Source: an uncultured Alphaproteobacteria bacterium (lineage in GTDB: Bacteria; Pseudomonadota; Alphaproteobacteria; UBA2966). Taken from it: 64,000 bases of DNA. Under the pieces are notes generated by a model. That model made no database searches. It worked only from the letters and a program-made list of their open reading frames with translations, and was not told the DNA's origin. The stretch lies in NCBI GenBank assembly GCA_958295725.1, contig OY282368.1, positions 1,758,001 to 1,822,000 on the forward strand, read 5' to 3'. Position 1 is the first letter of the stretch. Each line of letters begins with the position of its first letter. The position numbers and the translations under genes are program-made. Of the stretch, positions 4,524 to 59,170 are shown piece after piece.

Positions 4524-6398
4524 TCAACAGGGACTGTCCAGCCCGTTTCCGAGACCGTGCTCCAGCGGTCCCAATGCCTCGGCCAGCTTCTCCCGGTACT
4601 CGTCCGCCCGCCGCTGGCGGCGCCACATCGCCGCGTACAACCCGCCCCGCGCCATCAACGCGCCGTGGCTTCCCCGTTCCACGACTCGACCGGCGTCGAG
4701 GACCATGATCTCGTCGGCATCGACGATCGTGGACAGCCGATGCGCGATGATCAGCGTCGTGCGATCCGCGGAGACGTCGCGGATGCTGGCCTGGATCATC
4801 TGCTCGGTTCGCGAGTCGAGCGCGGAGGTCGCCTCGTCGAACACGAGCACGGCCGGTTTCTTCAGCATGGTCCGCGCGATCGCCACGCGCTGTTTCTCGC
4901 CCCCGGAAAGTTTGAGGCCCCGTTCTCCCACGACGGTCCGGTACCCCCGGGGCAGACCGGAAACGAAGTCGTGGACGTGGGCCATGCGGGCGGCCTCCTC
5001 GACTTCCGCGTCGGTCGCGTCGGGCCTTCCGTACCGGATGTTGTACCCGATCGTTTCGTTGAACAGCACCGCGTCCTGCGGCACGATTCCGATCGCGGCC
5101 CGGCAGGAATCCTGGGAGACGTCCCGGATGTCCCGGCCGTCGATGCGGATGGCGCCGTCGGTGACGTCGTAGAAACGGAACAACAGTCTCGAGATCGTGG
5201 ATTTGCCGGCGCCGGTCGGCCCGACGATGGCGAGCGTCCGGCCGGCGGGGACGGTGAACGACACGCCATGAAGGATCTCGCGTTCCGCTTCGTATGCGAA
5301 ACGCACCCGGTCGAAGACGATCTCTCCCCGGTCGACGTCCAGCGCACGGGCGCCCGGCCGGTCCTCGACCTCCTCCTTCAGGGCCAGCAGGTCGAACATG
5401 GCCTCCATGTCGACCAGGGACTGCCTGATCTCGCGGTAGACGAAGCCCAGGAAACCGAGTGGAAGATAGAGTTGAACGAGGAGGGTGTTGACCAGCACGA
5501 AATCCCCGATTGTCATCACGCCGTCCCGCACCCCGACGGCCGCCAGCAGCATCGCGCCGATCAGCCCCAGCGCGATGATCGCGCCCTGCCCGATATTCAG
5601 TCCCGAGAGCGTGACCTGGCTCTTGACGGCCGCCTTCTGGTACCTCTCCAGGGACCGGTCGTACCGCTCCTCCTCGTATGTCTCGTTCCCGAAGTACTTG
5701 ACGGTTTCGAAGTTCAGCAGACTGTCGATCGCCTTCGTGTTGGCCTCGTTCTCCGAGTGGTTCATCTCGCGCCGGAACTTGAGGCGCCACTCGGTGAAAA
5801 GCGCGGTGAACACGACGTAGCCGACCACGCCGAGGAACGTGATCGCGGCGAACCTGTAGTCGTACCGGTAGAGGAGAATGCCGCAGACCAGCCCGATTTC
5901 GAGCAGCGTGGGAAGCACGTTGAAGAGCATGAAGCGCAGCAGGAAATCGATCCCCTTCGTCCCCCGTTCGATCGACCGGGAGATCCCGCCGGTCTGTCGC
6001 TCCAGATGGAAACGCAGGGACAGCCGGTGAAGGTGATGGAAGGTGTCGAGCGCGAGCGAGCGCAGCGCGTGCTGGCCCACGCGGGCGAACACGGCATCCC
6101 GCAACTCGCCGAAGGCCTGCGCCATCACGCGAGCGCCGCCATATCCGACGATGACGAATACCGGAACGGCGACGATGGCCGCGCCTTCGATCGTCAGCGC
6201 GTCGACGGCCGCCTTGTAGAGGAAGGGCGCGCAGACGGTCGTGACCTTCGCCGCGGTCAGAAACCCGAGGGCCATCGCGACGCGGAGTTTCAACCCCGGC
6301 CGGCCGCGCGGCCACAGATAAGGCAGCAGCGCGCGCAACGCACCGAGGCGCGCCGACGGCGTATCGTCTCCGACATGGCCGACGGACGGCGGGCTCAT
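4524..6398 (-). CDS. ABC transporter, Atm1/HMT1-type fused permease-ATPase
   Basis: Half-size ABC exporter of 624 residues with an N-terminal six-helix membrane domain and a C-terminal ATPase. Walker A is GPTGAGKST (about 392-400), the signature is LSGGEKQRVAIAR (about 495) and Walker B is VLVFDEATSALD (about 515). The helix-4/5 segment ETVKYFGNE and the LNIGQGAI stretch are typical of the Atm1/ABCB7 branch. That branch exports glutathione-linked sulfur or heavy-metal compounds and supports iron-sulfur or metal homeostasis. Substrate here is inference from family. It lies between the LysM gene and psd, all leftward. Confidence 0.88.
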   Translation of the reverse strand: MSPPSVGHVGDDTPSARLGALRALLPYLWPRGRPGLKLRVAMALGFLTAAKVTTVCAPFLYKAAVDALTIEGAAIVAVPVFVIVGYGGARVMAQAFGELRDAVFARVGQHALRSLALDTFHHLHRLSLRFHLERQTGGISRSIERGTKGIDFLLRFMLFNVLPTLLEIGLVCGILLYRYDYRFAAITFLGVVGYVVFTALFTEWRLKFRREMNHSENEANTKAIDSLLNFETVKYFGNETYEEERYDRSLERYQKAAVKSQVTLSGLNIGQGAIIALGLIGAMLLAAVGVRDGVMTIGDFVLVNTLLVQLYLPLGFLGFVYREIRQSLVDMEAMFDLLALKEEVEDRPGARALDVDRGEIVFDRVRFAYEAEREILHGVSFTVPAGRTLAIVGPTGAGKSTISRLLFRFYDVTDGAIRIDGRDIRDVSQDSCRAAIGIVPQDAVLFNETIGYNIRYGRPDATDAEVEEAARMAHVHDFVSGLPRGYRTVVGERGLKLSGGEKQRVAIARTMLKKPAVLVFDEATSALDSRTEQMIQASIRDVSADRTTLIIAHRLSTIVDADEIMVLDAGRVVERGSHGALMARGGLYAAMWRRQRRADEYREKLAEALGPLEHGLGNGLDSPC

Positions 6399-6471
6399 GC
6401 CCGTCCCGTCGGTCCCGAACCGCGTGCGTCGGCCCCCGTGAGGTCCAGACGGATATTCGGAACCCGGGAAC

Positions 6472-7557
6472 TCAACTCCGTGGCGGCAACGCGAAAACCT
6501 GGCCGGGATAGATCAGGTCCGGGTCCTCGATCTGCCCGGCGTTCGCGGAGTAGATCACCGTGTACAGGACGCCCCGCCCGTATGTGGCGCGCGCGATCCG
6601 CCACAGGCTGTTCCCGGGTTGGACGGTGACCAGGAGTTCGCCCGGCCGCAAGCTCGCGCCGGCGACGTCCGCGCGTATGAACGGCAGCGCCGTCGACGCA
6701 ACGGTCCTGCCCGCGTCGTCGATGCTCCTGACCGACAGGACGTGCCTTCCGACCGCGATGTCCGTGGCCGGGGTCAATTCCCAATACCCCGTCTCGTCGG
6801 CGATGGTCGCGCCGACGACGCGACCGTCGATCTCGACCCACACTTCCGATTCCGGCGGCGCCGCGCCCGCCAGGACCGAGCGGCCCCGCTCGTCGTAGTC
6901 GACGGTGATCAATCGCAGGTCGTCGCTCGACGGGACGCGGGGCGAAACGGTCGGCCCCTGGAGCATACGGCTGACGCCGAAGGCTTCCCGCGGCACGGCG
7001 ACCGCGACGACCTGCCGGAATTCCGCCGCGCCCTCCCCGGAGGCGCTTCCCGACCCCGTTCCGTCCCGCTCGGGGATCGCCACCATCACCACCTCCTCGG
7101 ACTTCGCCGCCTCGCCTTCCTCGTCGCGCGCGTGAAGCGAAATTCGCGACCCGCTTTCGAGCGGCATCTCCGGAACGAGAACCCACTCCCCGCGACCGTC
7201 CGCGGTCACCGTCCCGACGATGTCCTCTCCGGCCTGGACGGTCACCTCCGAGCCGGGGGACGCCCGCCCCGCGATAACCGCGTTTCCCTCGCGGTCGACC
7301 CGCACCACGTCGAACGTGGGGGTGACGAGAGACGGCGTGGCGGGCGGCGCTTCGGGACGTTCCGACCGGCTCTCGTTGCCGGACGGAGCCGCCGACGCCG
7401 ACGCGACGGCCGGTTCCGGAGATGGCGCGACGGCCGGTTCCGGAGATTCGGTCGGGGCGATGGCGTACAACATCACGGCGGCGCCCACCGCGGCGGCCGC
7501 GATCACGGCCGCGACGGACCGCTTGGTCAACGAGTTACGGAAGCGTCGCGTGTTCAT
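6472..7557 (-). CDS. LysM-domain envelope protein with two Ig-like modules
   Basis: Predicted 361-residue protein anchored by an N-terminal membrane segment (about residues 14-32), followed by a low-complexity Pro/Ala/Glu linker. Two related modules of about 70 residues (near 80-150 and 205-280) each contain a G-x-A-x-P-x-S-E-V core, like bacterial Ig-type folds. A C-terminal LysM follows (about 308-358, with PGNSLWRIA and DPDLIYPGQ). LysM binds peptidoglycan glycan chains, so a periplasmic wall-associated role is likely. No catalytic domain is visible. It resembles the alphaproteobacterial LysM proteins often annotated only as peptidoglycan-binding. Confidence 0.85.
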   Translation of the reverse strand: MNTRRFRNSLTKRSVAAVIAAAAVGAAVMLYAIAPTESPEPAVAPSPEPAVASASAAPSGNESRSERPEAPPATPSLVTPTFDVVRVDREGNAVIAGRASPGSEVTVQAGEDIVGTVTADGRGEWVLVPEMPLESGSRISLHARDEEGEAAKSEEVVMVAIPERDGTGSGSASGEGAAEFRQVVAVAVPREAFGVSRMLQGPTVSPRVPSSDDLRLITVDYDERGRSVLAGAAPPESEVWVEIDGRVVGATIADETGYWELTPATDIAVGRHVLSVRSIDDAGRTVASTALPFIRADVAGASLRPGELLVTVQPGNSLWRIARATYGRGVLYTVIYSANAGQIEDPDLIYPGQVFALPPRS

Positions 7558-19415: not shown

Positions 19416-20858
19416 TCAGAAACGCCGTCGCAGCATGAGTTCGGCCCGGCTGCGACGGTACTCATGGAGCACGATGTTCGAGCCTCGGCGCTCATGGACG
19501 AACGAAAGCATCGGCACGAAGCCCCACAATTCGAACGCCCGGTTGTAGGCCGTGACCCGCGAGACGTGGAGCCGGTCGGCTCGGGGAGCGGGATGCAGGG
19601 CCGGCTTCGCCCGGTCGTACTCCGTGAGGTGGACCTGGTGCGACGCGTTCGATCCGAAGCCGCCTGTTCCCAGGATTCGGGGCAGGTCCCATTCCGCCGA
19701 GGCGCCTGCCCACAGGCCGTCGTACCGCTCGAACGGGCTTTCGGTTCGAGCGCGGCGCCAGCCGCCGTAGGCGTCGAGTCTCAGTACCGGGGTCGGACGA
19801 AAGGCGGCGCGGAATCCCACATCGAAGCGCGGACCGTCATAGCGCGGGAGCTTGCGATGAGTCTGCCTGGTGGCTCTGAGAAACCCGCCGATCCACAGGC
19901 GGTTGCCGAGCCGACGGCCGCCCTCGAGGCGCAGGCCCAGGCCGTCGCTGAAGATGTCGCCGGCCGACCAGCGACGGCTCGCCTCGGCCAGCAGGTCGAT
20001 ATCGCTGCGCGGCAACAGCAGGCGTGGACCGCCATAAAGCGACAGGGTCATGTCGTCGAAGCGATGTCCGCCGTACTCGCGCCGATGAACCGAGGCGCCG
20101 AGACGCAATCGGGTCGCTGTCGCGGCAAACGGTTGAAACGCCATCGGGTGCCAGTATTCGGTCGACCCGGACACGATCAAGCCCACGCCCGAGGAGGCGC
20201 GCGCGTCTTCGGCGATCTGGAAGGGCAGGTCGAAGATTTTGATGGTCCTGGCCCTGGTCGCCGCGTTGACGTTGGTGTCGGGAGCCACGGCAAACGCAAG
20301 AGAGGCCGACAGACGTTTTCGAGCGCGGATCGCGGCGAGAAAGCGGTTGACGTTCGACGCCACCACTTGCGGCGGACGGCTGGCCAATACCCTGCGAAAG
20401 TGACGCGCCGCGGCCTCGCAATCGTCGCCCAGAAGCTGCCGCAGGAGACCGGTCGCGGGTTCGTTGCAGCGACCGCGCTCGAACAGCACCCGGGCGAGTT
20501 CCAGCCGCGGCCGGGGCAGTTCCGGGCGGTTTGCAAGCATGCCTCGAAATATCCGCTCGGCTTCGTCGAGGAGGCGTACCCGCATCTCCTCGGTCCAGGG
20601 ACCGCCGCCGGGCGGTTCCGCACCCAATGCGGCGAAAAGGGCCGTCACGCCGAGGACGAAGCTGGCGTCGGGATCGTCGGGATTGGCGGCGACCAGCGAC
20701 CGCAGGAGAGTCAGGGCTCCCGATACTTTCCCTTCGGAGAGCAGGCGCCTGGCTTCGTCGACCGAAGCGGGGCCATCGCCGCCGCCGCAGAACGCGGGAC
20801 TGGAGAACATGGCGAGCGCCACCACGGCCGGCGCCAGCCAACGCCCCACGCCGCCCAT
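19416..20858 (-). CDS. surface lipoprotein assembly modifier (Slam/DUF560-like outer-membrane translocon)
   Basis: Predicted 480-residue outer-membrane protein with a signal peptide, an N-terminal TPR-like helical domain (about 30-160) and a C-terminal beta-barrel ending in Phe (AELMLRRRF). The junction LAFAVAPDTNVNAATRA is characteristic of Slam proteins, which move lipoproteins to the cell surface. The ATG at 20858 gives a clean signal peptide with GGAAAG just upstream; longer frames add a charged tail. It lies 171 bp downstream of a TbpB-like lipoprotein gene, its probable cargo. Slam was defined in Neisseria; this would be an alphaproteobacterial homologue. Confidence 0.82.
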   Translation of the reverse strand: MGGVGRWLAPAVVALAMFSSPAFCGGGDGPASVDEARRLLSEGKVSGALTLLRSLVAANPDDPDASFVLGVTALFAALGAEPPGGGPWTEEMRVRLLDEAERIFRGMLANRPELPRPRLELARVLFERGRCNEPATGLLRQLLGDDCEAAARHFRRVLASRPPQVVASNVNRFLAAIRARKRLSASLAFAVAPDTNVNAATRARTIKIFDLPFQIAEDARASSGVGLIVSGSTEYWHPMAFQPFAATATRLRLGASVHRREYGGHRFDDMTLSLYGGPRLLLPRSDIDLLAEASRRWSAGDIFSDGLGLRLEGGRRLGNRLWIGGFLRATRQTHRKLPRYDGPRFDVGFRAAFRPTPVLRLDAYGGWRRARTESPFERYDGLWAGASAEWDLPRILGTGGFGSNASHQVHLTEYDRAKPALHPAPRADRLHVSRVTAYNRAFELWGFVPMLSFVHERRGSNIVLHEYRRSRAELMLRRRF

Positions 20859-21029
20859 GATCTTTCCGGAGCGGCGCGCCTCATGCCTGATATGCATACG
20901 AGCCGTCGTCGCCTTGCCGCGGTCCACCGCGCCAAGGCGGCGGACCGCGGCAAACTTCGCCGTTCGTGTCGCGAACGGTCCGGGGCGGCGGCCGTTCGCG
21001 AGGTCGTCCGCCGCGACCGGCGATTGGAA

Positions 21030-22184
21030 TTACTCCTTATCCCCCACGAACACGCCGGCGAACGCGCCGTTGCCTCTCGCGTCGGTGTACTTTCCACCGA
21101 GAGTTCCGGCGGCCCTGGCGGGGGTCGTGTCCACGGCGTCGTTGTCGGAGAACGTGCCGCCCCAATTGCCCGAGGACGTAGTGACGCCCGTGCCCGTAAC
21201 GGATACGGCGCCCTTGAACGTCCCGTCGTCCGTGATCGAGGCTTCGCCAAGGCGGATGGTCCCACTCTCCAGGGTCCCATCGTCAGCCACCAACTCCGCG
21301 ATGGTCTCGTAGGTGTAGATGCGCCTATTCAGATTGGGACTGCAGCCGACGCAGCCGTTGATCGTGCCGCCCGCGAAATCGGCGACGAGTGTCAAACCGC
21401 CCCACCAGACGCCATTCCCGCTCGCCGCGTGGTGATAGGTGCCTTCCGCGGCGCCGGCGTAGGTGGCCGTGCCGGAGGTCGGTTTCGTCCAGCCGTCGCT
21501 GCCATGATTGAAGACCGATCCGTCGCCGAAGTCGCCGAAGGTGCCGATTTCATAGTCGACGCCCCCGCTGCCGTCGTCCGAGCCCGTCACCCAATATCCC
21601 CCGGCCAGGTAATTCGTCGAGTCGGCGTCCTCCCAGGCCGTGTACACAAAGGCCACGGTTGTCGCGGTCCCGTCTCTCTTCTCCAGGATCGCGCCGTTTC
21701 CGGACCATCCCTCGGGCAACTCCGCATCATTCATCCAGGCCGTACCCGTCAGGTCGGTGCGGAGATGCTCCCGGCCGTTCAGCGACAAGGATTCCTCTCC
21801 GGCCCCGTCCGTCACGGTCATGCTCAATACGCCGTTGCCCGCGGCATCGACGGTAAGCGCGGTATCGACGGTATCCGAGGTCACTCCGGATTGATCGACG
21901 TTGCTGCTCTGGACGATGCTGCCGAATCTGGGTTCCGCATCGGCCAGTCTCGCGGCGGCGGCGAGGTCGCCTTGCAATTGCGACAGGGGACGGTTCGTTC
22001 CGCCGTTCTGGCCGCCACCGCCCGGCGGTGCTGGAGGTTGCGGCGTCGCTGGAGGTTGCATCGTCGCTGGAGGTTGCTCCATCATCGCTGGAGGCGTGGT
22101 ACCGCTGCTGCTGCCGCAGCCGGACAGCACGATCGCGCACGCCGCCGCCGACAAGATGAATCCACTCGTACCGCTGATAGACAT
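21030..22184 (-). CDS. TbpB-like surface lipoprotein, probable Slam substrate
   Basis: 384-residue lipoprotein with lipobox LSGC (Cys23), then a Pro-rich linker built from PPAT-type repeats and a Gly-rich stretch. The mature part ends in a small beta-barrel motif (GNWGGTFSDN, then AAGTLGGKY and GAFAGVFVGDKE). This is the TbpB barrel-domain pattern found in transferrin-, hemoglobin- and complement-binding lipoproteins handled by Slam. The ligand is unknown. AGAGAGG precedes the ATG. Only 29 bp separate the ATG from an array of nine 13-bp repeats, so expression is likely controlled through that leader. Confidence 0.78.
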   Translation of the reverse strand: MSISGTSGFILSAAACAIVLSGCGSSSGTTPPAMMEQPPATMQPPATPQPPAPPGGGGQNGGTNRPLSQLQGDLAAAARLADAEPRFGSIVQSSNVDQSGVTSDTVDTALTVDAAGNGVLSMTVTDGAGEESLSLNGREHLRTDLTGTAWMNDAELPEGWSGNGAILEKRDGTATTVAFVYTAWEDADSTNYLAGGYWVTGSDDGSGGVDYEIGTFGDFGDGSVFNHGSDGWTKPTSGTATYAGAAEGTYHHAASGNGVWWGGLTLVADFAGGTINGCVGCSPNLNRRIYTYETIAELVADDGTLESGTIRLGEASITDDGTFKGAVSVTGTGVTTSSGNWGGTFSDNDAVDTTPARAAGTLGGKYTDARGNGAFAGVFVGDKE

Positions 22185-22213
22185 TCGGAACCTCTCTGTT
22201 TCTTAATTAGAGT

Positions 22214-22330
22214 GAAGAGGCCCCGTGAAGAGGCCCCGTGAAGAGGCCCCGTGAAGAGGCCCCGTGAAGAGGCCCCGTGAAGAGGCCCCGTGAAGAGGCC
22301 CCGTGAAGAGGCCCCGTGAAGAGGCCCCGT
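22214..22330. repeat. tandem array, nine 13-bp units
   Basis: Nine exact head-to-tail copies of GAAGAGGCCCCGT (ACGGGGCCTCTTC in the sense of the lipoprotein gene). The array sits between a promoter-like block and the lipoprotein ATG, so it would be transcribed as 5' leader. The same unit is repeated ten times at 57858-57987 before the autotransporter gene. Confidence 0.97.
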
Positions 22331-22383
22331 GAAGTTCATAACTCTACCTTATCACGAACGACGCAACAAGGTCAAAATCCGCC
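22331..22383 (-). promoter_or_regulatory. conserved promoter-like block upstream of repeat array
   Basis: About 50 bp matching the block at 57988-58031 with roughly nine differences over 44 bp. In gene sense it contains TTGACC, an 18-bp gap and TAAGGT, plausible -35 and -10 elements. This copy is uninterrupted, whereas the autotransporter copy is split by an IS481 element. Confidence 0.55.
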
Positions 22384-27971: not shown

Positions 27972-28115
27972 AGTCCGCCCCCCCCCCCTCCAGGCGGTCC
28001 CTCCGTCGAGGGGGAGGAGCCGGCCGTCCGGCGAAGTTGTAGTACGATGTATGGTGAACGGGTATCCGGCGCACATGCGCCGACCCGACGGAAGGGTAAA
28101 GACCGAGGAGCGACC

Positions 28116-39072: not shown

Positions 39073-41157
39073 TCATGGATCTCCGCCGCCGGAGAGTTGT
39101 TTGAGGGCGCGGTTCGCCGCATCGGCCGCGGTTTCGTCGCCCGCCGCGCGAGCCAAGGCGAGCGCCGTCTCGAAATCCCGCCGCGCCTCGTCCTCGCGGC
39201 CCAGGGCCAAATTCGTTGCGGCTCGATTGTTGTAGGCCATGGCATAGTCCGGCTTCAGGGCATAGTCCGGCTTCAGCCGGATCGCCTCGTCGTAATCGGC
39301 GATGGCGTCCTCGTGCCGACCGAGGTCGTGCTTCGCGTTGCCCCGGTTGTAGTATGCTTCGGCATAGTCCGGTTTCCGCCGGATCGCCTCGTCGTAATCG
39401 GCGATGGCGTCCTCGTGCCGACCGAGGTCGTGCTTCGCGCTGCCCCGGTTGTTGTAGGCTTCGGCCAAGTCCGGTTTCAGCCGGATCGCTTCGTCGTAAT
39501 CGGCGATGGCGTCCTCATGCCGACTGAGGAGGGCCTTCGCGTTGCCCCGGTTGCTGTAGGCCGTGCCATCGTCCGGTTTCAGCCGGATCGCCTCGTCGTA
39601 ATCGGCGATGGCGTCCTCATGCCGACCGAGGTCATCCTTCGCGTTGCCCCGGTTATTGTAGGCTTCGGCCAAATCAGGTTTCAGCCGGACCGCCTCATCG
39701 TAATCGGCGATGGCGTCCTCGTGTCGGTTGAGATTACTCTTCGCGTTGCCCCGGTTGTTGCAGGCTTCGGCATAGTCCGGTTTCAGCCGGACCGCCTCGT
39801 CGTAATCGGCGATGGCGTCCTCGTGCCGACCGAGGTCGTGCTTCGCGCTGCCCCGGTTGTTGTAGGCTTCGGCCAAGTCCGGTTTCAGCCGGACCGCCTC
39901 GTCGTAGTCCGCGATGGCGTCCTCGTGCCGACCGAGGCGGGCCTTCGCGTTGCCCCGGTTGTTGTAGGCTTCGGCCAAGTCCGGTTTCAGCCGGACCGCC
40001 TCGTCGTAGTCCGCGATGGCGTCCTCGTGCCGACCGAGGCGGGCCTTCGCGTTGCCCCGGTTGTTGTATGCTTCGGCATAGTCCGGGTTCAGCCGGATCG
40101 CCTCGTCGTAGTCCGCGATGGCGTCCTCGTGCCGACCGAGGTCGTGCTTCGCAACACCCCGGTTGTTGTAGGCCTCGGGCAGGTCCGGCTTCAGCCGGAT
40201 CGCCTTGTCGTGGTCCGCAATGGCGTCCTCGTACCAACCGAGGTCGTGCTTCGCGTTGCCCCGGTTGTTGTAGACCTCGGGCAGGTTCGGGTTCAGCCGG
40301 ACCGCCTCGTCGTAGGCGGCGATTGCCGATGCCAGATCGTTGGGCTTGTCTTTCTGAAGGAGGTAGCCGACGGAGGACCACGCCCGGGCTCCGAGCTCGT
40401 TGTCGATTCCGTCCACGAAGTTGGCGATGGCGCGCCACTTCTCGATGGCCTCTTCGATGTTTCCCCGTCGTTGCAGCAGGATGGCGGCGGCGACCGATCG
40501 GTCGATCGGGGACGCCGAGGGATCCGCCTGGGCGCTTTGCGCGGCTTCATCGGCCTTGTCCGGTTCCGCCGCGGCGGTCTCGGCGGTCATCTCCTGCACC
40601 AGCGAGGTGGCCTCGTCGCGCTTTTCTTTAATCTCGTCGACCAGATTTCGGGCCTCTTCGGCATGTTCTCCGGCCCTATCGACATTCCCGCGCGCTTCGT
40701 CTTCGATCTCGCGGAACCGCTTGAAGCCGAGATAGCCGGCGACGACGGCGACGACGCCGAGCAGCGTCAGGAAGATGGCGACCGCCATGAGCCACCAGTC
40801 GAGGGTTCTGGCCCGGTCGTCCAGCAGTTCGCGCCGCAGGTCGTTGAAGCGCCGTTCGACTTCGACGGCAAGCGCATCGTCCAAGCCGGTCTCGCCCGGC
40901 GTCTCCGTCGCCCGCCGTTGCGCGAGCGCGTCGGCGGGCGGTTCGGCTTCGGGAGCGGCGGCCGGGGCGGTCTCGGTCGGCGGCGCCGGTTCGGCGGCAA
41001 GGAGCGGGAATCCCAAGGCCACGACCGCCGCGAAGGCCAGACCGGCGGCAACCGCCGCGCGCGGGCGTCGGGGAGAGAATTTCGCCGTACTTGAACCGCT
41101 GCCGCGCCGCTTGACCGGAGACCGACGGGGCCGGGCCTGGAAAAGAGAGGACTTCAC
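39073..41157 (-). CDS. membrane-anchored TPR-repeat protein in hsd locus
   Basis: 694-residue protein with a hydrophobic N-terminal segment (about 30-55), a second transmembrane helix (near 115-138), a Glu/Ala coiled region and twelve 34-residue TPR units to the C-terminus. Most units share the consensus [20 protein letters not shown], and the 102-bp DNA repeats are nearly identical. In unit 11 an extra copy of LKPDYA reflects an 18-bp duplication. The GTG start (41157) overlaps the stop of the DUF1828 gene (GTGA). TPRs mediate protein binding; the partner is unknown. Confidence 0.85.
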
Positions 41158-57834: not shown

Positions 57835-57857
57835 CGGAACAAGGACCCCCACTTCTA

Positions 57858-57987
57858 GAAGAGGCCCCGTGAAGAGGCCCCGTGAAGAGGCCCCGTGAAG
57901 AGGCCCCGTGAAGAGGCCCCGTGAAGAGGCCCCGTGAAGAGGCCCCGTGAAGAGGCCCCGTGAAGAGGCCCCGTGAAGAGGCCCCGT
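57858..57987. repeat. tandem array, ten 13-bp units
   Basis: Ten exact copies of GAAGAGGCCCCGT, the same unit as at 22214-22330. The array ends 23 bp before the chosen autotransporter start. It is followed on the far side by the conserved block at 57988. Confidence 0.97.
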
Positions 57988-58031
57988 GAAGTTCGCAACC
58001 CTACCCTACCACGAACGACACCGCAAGGTCA
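57988..58031 (-). promoter_or_regulatory. conserved promoter-like block, disrupted by IS481
   Basis: Matches 22331-22374 with about nine changes. In gene sense the -35-like TTGACC of the intact copy reads ATGACC here, because the IS has inserted directly beside TGACC. The -10-like element is TAGGGT. The continuation (AAAATTCG) is found beyond the IS at 59176. Confidence 0.55.
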
Positions 58032-59170
58032 TGTCCTGGTTCAGGACATATGAGACACGGGGGTCTCTTTGGCTGTCAGTGAGTGAAGGTACTGGGCGGG
58101 GGTGTGTCCGCCAAGGGCTTGGTGCGGTCTGAAGGTGTTGAATTCGTCGGCGAAGGCGTCGATCCATCGGTTGATGTCGTCGAGGTTGTCGTCGGGCAGG
58201 TCCCATGAGGCGTAGAACTCGTATCGCCATGCGCCGTTGTTACGCTCGACGTGTCCGTTGAGCTTGGGCGATCGGGGCGGGAGTTCGAACAGGTCGATGC
58301 CGCGGCGCTGGCATTCGGTCTCGAAGTCGGCCTTGAACTCGGAGCCTCCATCGACCTGGATGGCTTCGATGGGGAAGGGCATGTCGGCCTGGAGCTTGTC
58401 GAGGAAGCGCCTGGCGTTGTGTGCGGTTGCGCGTCTCCAGGCCTGTGCGCAGGTCCACTTTGCGACGGGGTCATGGGCGGTGAACTGCTTGATGGCGGGC
58501 CGGGCTGTGTGTGGTGAGACGGTGAGGGTGTCGAGTTGGACGATCTCGCCGGGACTTGTGGGCTTGCGGCCCCTGGGCAGGCGTCTGGCGTATGGTCTGA
58601 GGCGCCGGGCGGCGCGCGGTCCGTTGCGGCGCAAGGTCGGGACCGGGGTGACGGCGCCGCGCTCCATGAGGGTCTTGAGGATGCGGCCCGTGGTGCTCTC
58701 GCTTACCGCGTGCCCGTTGCGTCGGAGCAGGACGGCGATCTTGGCCTTGCCCCACATGGGGTAGTCGGCGCGTGTCTCCCGGACCGCCGTCACCAGCGCC
58801 GCCGACCAAGTGGGCCGGCGCGGGGTGTGCGGGCGGCGCGAGCACGGCTTGAGGCGGTTGCGGTCCGCCAGCCTCTGCCACCGGTAGAGGGTCGATCTCG
58901 GCACGCCGACGGCGTTGGCGGCCGCTCGTGCGGTCAGGCCGTCGGCCCGGGCTTGGCGCCAGCGCTCAAGGGCGTCGCGCCTGTGCGCTTCGTCGCTCCG
59001 CTCCTTGCCGCACAGGCGCGACGCCAGGGCGGCTCCTCGTGTAATCTGCCGGGGCAGGCCGAAGGTCTGCATGGGGGTTCTCCTTCACGCTGGTTGTTCA
59101 GCACCAACAGCGTCGGAGACCCCCGCCCTTACATCAAGGGCCGTGTCTCACATCTGTCTGAACGAGGTCA
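58032..59170 (-). mobile_element. IS481-family insertion sequence
   Basis: 1139-bp element with imperfect terminal inverted repeats (TGTCCTGGTTCAGGACATAT at left; TGACCTCGTTCAGACAGATG reading in from the right). It is flanked by a 5-bp direct repeat GGTCA (58027-58031 and 59171-59175). The uninterrupted homologous site upstream of the lipoprotein gene confirms the insertion point. Solo ends or remnants lie at 19338, 22391, 32264 and 59182. Confidence 0.88.
58041..59072 (-). CDS. IS481-family DDE transposase
   Basis: 343-residue transposase. An N-terminal helix-turn-helix (LTARAAANAVGVPRSTLYRW) precedes the rve-type integrase core: Asp in VQLDTLTVS, Asp in IQVDGGSEFKAD and Glu in LNGHVERNNGAWRYEF. 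The C-terminal FNTFRPHQALGGHTPAQYL is typical. The stop codon lies inside the left inverted repeat. The gene appears intact. Confidence 0.92.
   Translation of the reverse strand: MQTFGLPRQITRGAALASRLCGKERSDEAHRRDALERWRQARADGLTARAAANAVGVPRSTLYRWQRLADRNRLKPCSRRPHTPRRPTWSAALVTAVRETRADYPMWGKAKIAVLLRRNGHAVSESTTGRILKTLMERGAVTPVPTLRRNGPRAARRLRPYARRLPRGRKPTSPGEIVQLDTLTVSPHTARPAIKQFTAHDPVAKWTCAQAWRRATAHNARRFLDKLQADMPFPIEAIQVDGGSEFKADFETECQRRGIDLFELPPRSPKLNGHVERNNGAWRYEFYASWDLPDDNLDDINRWIDAFADEFNTFRPHQALGGHTPAQYLHSLTAKETPVSHMS

Follow-up and report, generated by a model that had tools for sequence, protein, structure and literature searches.

A leader consisting of a promoter-like block and a 13-bp tandem repeat precedes eleven surface-protein genes of several families in one alphaproteobacterial genome, with a repeat copy number that ranges from 3 to 29 among the 11 sites. 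The existence of this shared, copy-variable leader is well supported. Our best explanation, favoured tentatively on the basis of modelled RNA folds, is that the leader acts on translation through odd–even pairing of its repeats.

Repeat arrays and the promoter-like block

The window (the whole 64-kb stretch of DNA that was analysed; Table 1) contains two arrays of nine and ten exact GAAGAGGCCCCGT units, all 100% identical, at the places and in the numbers given by the original prediction. Their TRF scores are 246 and 268, and the unit is matched with at most two mismatches 20 times; when the window was shuffled 100 times, the mean was 3.2 and the largest value 9. Read in gene sense (minus strand), the leader runs from the block through a short link ending in GAACTTC and the ACGGGGCCTCTTC array to ∼20–30 nt that include the Shine–Dalgarno (SD) sequence, and then to the ATG; array 1 ends 29 bp before its ATG (22184), as had been stated. 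The window also holds a 102-bp tandem repeat of about ten copies with 88% matches (39259–40323).

Table 1. Positions of the leader elements and associated genes (window coordinates unless a contig is named)
Feature	Position	Strand	Remarks
Array 1, nine perfect 13-bp units, gene sense ACGGGGCCTCTTC	22214..22330	(-)	Odd count; predicted to be SD-locked
Array 2, ten perfect 13-bp units	57858..57987	(-)	Even count
SD region CAGAGAGGTT	22189..22198	(-)	Complementary to the repeat unit over 11 bp
Lipoprotein gene, 384 aa, lipobox LSGC	21030..22184	(-)	Adjoins the Slam gene
Slam gene	19416..20927	(-)	SlipAM PF04575, E 2e-16
Conserved block core GTCGTTCGTGATAAGGTA, putative -10 TAAGGT at 22346-22351	22345..22362	(-)	11 genomic copies, 0 mismatches to GTCGTTCGTGRTARGGTA
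Putative -35 TTGACC	22370..22375	(-)	TTGAC in 10/11 copies; putative promoter function
SD region GGGGGTCC of the autotransporter gene	57843..57850	(-)	
Autotransporter gene, 1291 aa	53959..57834	(-)	PF03797, E 9.5e-29
Conserved block of array 2	57992..58032	(-)	-35 altered to ATGACC; adjoins an IS-type transposase ORF
L071-L074	G000:C1:566155-566721, C1:1531801-1532406, C1:2107036-2107629, C3:27950-28543		Autotransporter domains

The block reads TTTTGACC ... GTCGTTCGTGATAAGGTA in gene sense, and the flanking sequence common to both window arrays, which had been noted before, is GTCGTTCGTG(A/G)TA(A/G)GGTA. The TTGACC that was said to be shared as well is present in the first window copy, but the second copy has ATGACC. 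An IS-type transposase ORF (window 58041–59072) ends at 58041, 9 bp from this ATGACC; a similar sequence is found beside the L032 block, and the start of the transposase recurs directly before the third Slam gene (L085, near 6300–6480). In the array 1 region, Rfam yielded only chance-level mir-7180 matches (18.9 bits, compared with a gathering score of 78 bits).

The location of the arrays in a 5′ leader, as originally proposed, is plausible. It is strengthened by a distantly related genome, G273, because the 13-bp array found there follows a more canonical promoter: TTGCCA is followed 16 bp further on by a TATAAG box, and the array starts ∼12 bp beyond this box. The promoter of the present leaders is a putative one, and a scan with a strict sigma-70 consensus found no promoter.

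The 3.67-Mb genome contains 98 copies of the exact unit, all of them in perfect arrays that directly follow the block, at ten places. GTCGTTCGTGRTARGGTA is found without mismatch at eleven places, and the remaining matches in the whole genome all carry three mismatches, which is the chance level. The eleventh block (C1:2776466–2776483) is followed by a one-base variant unit, ACGGGGCCTCTCC, in 16 full copies and one near-complete copy. The genome search thus extends the set from the two members of the original prediction to 11, with core counts of 7 (L031), 29 (L032), 14 (L033), 10 (L034), 6 (L035), 5 (L036), 7 (L037), 3 (L038), 9 (L039), 10 (L040) and 17 (L052); the L038 array consists of one normal unit and two ACAGGGCC variant units. 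Such a spread of copy numbers, combined with near-perfect identity of the units, points to recent turnover of the arrays.

Surface-protein genes behind the leader

All 11 blocks carry an array and have a surface-protein gene downstream, identified by Pfam or by a lipobox, and in each case the tandem repeat lies between the putative promoter and the start of the gene. A non-surface gene beside the array, which had been named beforehand as an observation that would count against a surface-protein leader, occurs in none of the 11 cases, and the common variable-copy leader proposed for two unrelated surface proteins is seen at 11 genes of several families. These are six paralogous lipoproteins, two Slam-linked lipoproteins and three autotransporters. 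The six paralogs are all of the members of the A1 lipoprotein family (MTITRLM...LGAC) in this genome; the two lipoproteins adjoining Slam genes are that of the window, for which no Pfam match was obtained, and one on contig C2; and the autotransporters comprise one YadA-like protein and two large proteins (that of the window and one of 1275 aa). Copies of the leader lie on two contigs, and the genes that they precede are not all homologous. The leader does not precede every surface gene, with nine of the 11 PF03797 matches and one of the three Slam loci located elsewhere. AlphaFold modelling of the lipoproteins gave structures of unusably low confidence (mean pLDDT 36 and 43).

The six lipoprotein paralogs (L031, L032, L033, L034, L035 and L038) are mosaics with strongly diverged middles, conserved ends and, in three of them, near-identical starts. 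L031, L034 and L038 share ∼96–100% identity over the 5′ third and then ∼35–70%, a mosaicism suggesting gene conversion.

Several further features of the genome concern surface genes or simple repeats. Autotransporter domains are also present in giant open frames of ∼5,800–11,300 aa (L071–L074), and near the start of a giant autotransporter frame another leader repeat was observed, with about four 20-bp units resembling GGGTTGAGTATCGGAGATTA (L082; G000:C1 ∼1557832–1557909). Homopolymer C/G tracts of 11–17 are located at L080:3887–3899, L034:6152–6168, L076:2850–2866 and window 27978–27988. The L080 tract is a C13 directly upstream of an autotransporter start, which is a classical phase-variation layout.

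Predicted folding of the leader RNA

The RNA unit ACGGGGCCUCUUC contains the self-complementary core GGGGCCUC. Two cores pair over 8 bp (including two G·U pairs) around the loop UUCAC with a computed energy of -12.9 kcal/mol, and neighbouring units are therefore predicted to form hairpins; the region around the SD sequence is predicted to pair with a unit as well. In the folded leaders the units pair off, mostly neighbour with neighbour, and in several leaders with odd counts the start-proximal unit captures the SD region in the predicted fold, over 10–11 bp in L031 and L039. RNA G-quadruplexes, which had been suggested on account of the GGGG tracts, are not supported: ViennaRNA with G4 energies places none in the minimum-energy fold of any of the 11 leaders, since the GGGGCCUC hairpins win.

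The predicted cost of opening the SD region is mostly 12–15 kcal/mol for odd copy numbers and mostly 6–9 kcal/mol for even ones. For L031 the values are ∼14.1 (odd) and ∼7.6 kcal/mol (even) and remain flat out to 29 copies. The expected alternation is computed for nine of the 11 leaders. L040 is almost flat, and the inversion in L052 is explained by one extra core in its tail; by core count, L052 agrees. In the even leaders, a large fraction of the ensemble still has part of the SD region paired with the array, although more weakly.

We infer that the block would be the promoter and that transcription would start directly before the array. Each core GGGGCCUC would pair with that of the next unit, so that pairs of units would form in succession from the 5′ end, and the SD region would act as one more, degenerate pairing partner. 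In a leader with an odd count, the last unit would be left over, would capture the SD region and would block translation; with an even count, all units would be paired and the SD region would be about as accessible as without an array. Slippage by plus or minus one 13-bp unit would then flip the state of that gene alone. The complete form of this proposal, namely a parity counter made of RNA in which units pair two by two during transcription, the odd or even count and not the length gates the ribosome-binding site, and 11 genes are switched independently, is put forward with greater reserve than odd–even pairing as such.

The computed parity effect (odd minus even) averages 5.6 kcal/mol over ten tails. 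With 150 shuffled units on the ten tails, the corresponding value was 0.04 ± 0.57 (maximum 4.1), and none of the 150 reached 5.6. Placing the real unit before 33 other gene starts of the genome gave 0.39 ± 1.85 (maximum 4.2); the leader tails differ from these control starts with a Mann–Whitney p of 1.6e-5, which is overstated because eight of the 11 tails are homologous. Duplexes between the unit and the SD region range from -14.4 to -19.1 kcal/mol, compared with -10.9 ± 3.4 kcal/mol in controls. When base pairs were limited to a span of 40 nt, as a stand-in for co-transcriptional folding, the effect was +6.5 to +10.2 in all ten tails. At the same span, the real value for four unrelated tails was 8.6, with none of 300 shuffled units as high, and units with an equally stable hairpin had a mean of only 1.2. 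Three other energy parameter sets kept the positive sign in 9–10 of the ten tails (MFE energies; the first fold after each change of set was still computed on the previous one).

In global equilibrium folds extended by 120 nt of coding sequence, the mean fell to 2.9, with values near zero or negative in three tails, and the array 2 tail has a small effect of 0.7 in the standard fold. When tails were shuffled around a fixed SD motif, 1–27 of 100 shuffles were at or above the real value, depending on the tail; support from the tails alone is moderate. Self-pairing of the unit was discarded as a stand-alone proof, as about one-third of shuffled units contain an 8-mer that self-pairs equally well or fold as stably.

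Alternative explanations and known systems

In known cases of repeat-based phase variation, the repeats act on the reading frame (modulo 3), on promoter spacing or in a graded manner through the leader. No bacterial example of an odd/even repeat switch was found in the literature searched, an absence that is weak evidence; the precedents are graded, frame-based or mediated by RNA in trans, none involves parity, and parity is a possible new switching logic.

The main rival of odd–even pairing, which we consider rather unlikely, is graded control, in which copy number would alter promoter activity, mRNA stability or leader structure, either monotonically or with an optimum, and parity would be irrelevant. 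The anatomy is the same, with a variable repeat between promoter and surface-gene start, and a long GC-rich hairpin chain could influence RNA decay. The computed SD accessibility, however, alternates without length drift and is flat to n = 29, and graded control would leave the specific complementarity between unit and SD region superfluous. There are precedents for graded control. The 7-bp (ATCTTTC) repeats of H. influenzae hmw1A/hmw2A are likewise variable tandem repeats at surface adhesin promoters and lie in the 5′ UTR (of P2 transcripts in hmw1A), where more repeats give less mRNA and protein (PMC8262952). The effect there is monotonic, whereas parity is predicted to matter here, and the present unit is 13 bp long, self-pairing, SD-complementary and common to 11 genes of several families. 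In M. catarrhalis, as summarized in PMC4679880, the AGAT repeat of uspA2 and the poly-G tract of uspA1 are also located between the promoter and the start codon of a surface gene, and the highest uspA2 expression is reported at 18 AGAT copies; these units are very short, and that summary does not describe pairing among units or with the SD sequence.

Distinctly less probable is a recombination handle, with identical leaders and conserved gene starts mainly providing homology for surface-gene conversion and copy number as a by-product. Such a role would accord with the mosaic structure of the six lipoprotein paralogs, of which L031, L034 and L038 are alike in the 5′ third, and with a leader that is found on two contigs before non-homologous genes, but a self-pairing, SD-complementary unit would be superfluous for homology, the array is kept between the block and the SD sequence in 11/11 cases, and the YadA-like and classical autotransporter genes fall outside the lipoprotein family.

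It is improbable that the array RNA serves as a landing pad for a trans-acting factor, either an RNA-binding protein or an sRNA whose own loop is C/U- or G-rich; the strong intramolecular pairing of units (-12.9 kcal/mol per two-core hairpin) would compete with binding. The leader would nevertheless offer many identical sites, and the RepG sRNA and tlpB G-repeat of H. pylori provide a precedent for post-transcriptional base-pairing control at a variable mRNA-leader repeat (PMC8295292); control there is trans-acting and graded, whereas here the pairing is predicted to occur within the leader.

Frame-based switching, in which translation would start in the block or at the 5′ end of the array and run through it, and the copy number modulo 3 would set the frame of a leader peptide or N-terminal extension, is very improbable. 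All frames of the array are free of stop codons, many loci remain open from the array into the gene, and in window copy 1 an ATG directly precedes the array, but this start codon is not conserved among the copies (TTGCGAAC, TACGAAC, TATGAAC, GTGAAC) and lies at the predicted transcription start, and the SD sequence and ATG are directly before signal peptides, which a long extension would precede. Its precedent, the GCAGA leader peptide of S. gallolyticus pil1, resembles the present leaders as a repeat-number switch with discrete states in the 5′ leader of a surface operon but works through a transcription terminator together with the reading frame (modulo 3) (PMC3894217). A leader-peptide attenuator of the pil1 type was rejected here, as the leader start codon is not conserved and the surroundings of array 1 yielded no terminator-like site. 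The TAACTGA repeats of Beggiatoaceae share with the 13-bp unit the occurrence of one repeat upstream of many start codons, and a translation-level role has been proposed for them; they show no surface-gene bias and mostly replace the SD sequence, whereas the present leaders retain an SD sequence, to which the unit is complementary (PMC4679880).

Occurrence in relatives and significance

Among 384 other genomes of the class, the A1 lipoprotein family is present in one, G273, which belongs to another family. One ortholog there has a 13-bp array before the start, with the unit GCGGGGCCCCTTC and the arrangement CCTTCGC-GGGGCCCC-TTCGC-GGGGCCCC-TTCGCG, followed by the SD sequence GGGGGCC. The core length of 8 and the loop length of 5 are kept, and the only change in the core, U to C, converts both G·U pairs into G–C pairs and preserves self-pairing. 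The computed parity effect agrees in sign, with values between +2.8 and +6.4 under different settings, and is not significant, 24 of 300 shuffled units doing as well. In a second G273 ortholog, a long poly-C tract is located ∼190 bp before the start in place of a 13-bp array (L096, near 7197–7211).

No other genome of the G273 family has such an array, and the three-unit pattern is absent from the 384 other genomes of the class. The block has no match in other species among the genome and viral contigs searched, and the unit pair was not found in the viral contigs searched. None of the 14 other genomes of the order has Slam or the A1 lipoprotein family, and no Slam homologs were found in the named genomes; PF03797 is found in one of the 14, with one match there compared with 11 here.

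The sampled relatives of this bacterium are mostly without autotransporters, Slam genes and the A1 lipoprotein family. If odd–even pairing operates as proposed, a modulo-2 switch based on repeat–repeat pairing would represent a new logic that is binary, insensitive to length and portable to genes with a matching SD sequence, and it would give this organism independent on/off states for 11 surface proteins.
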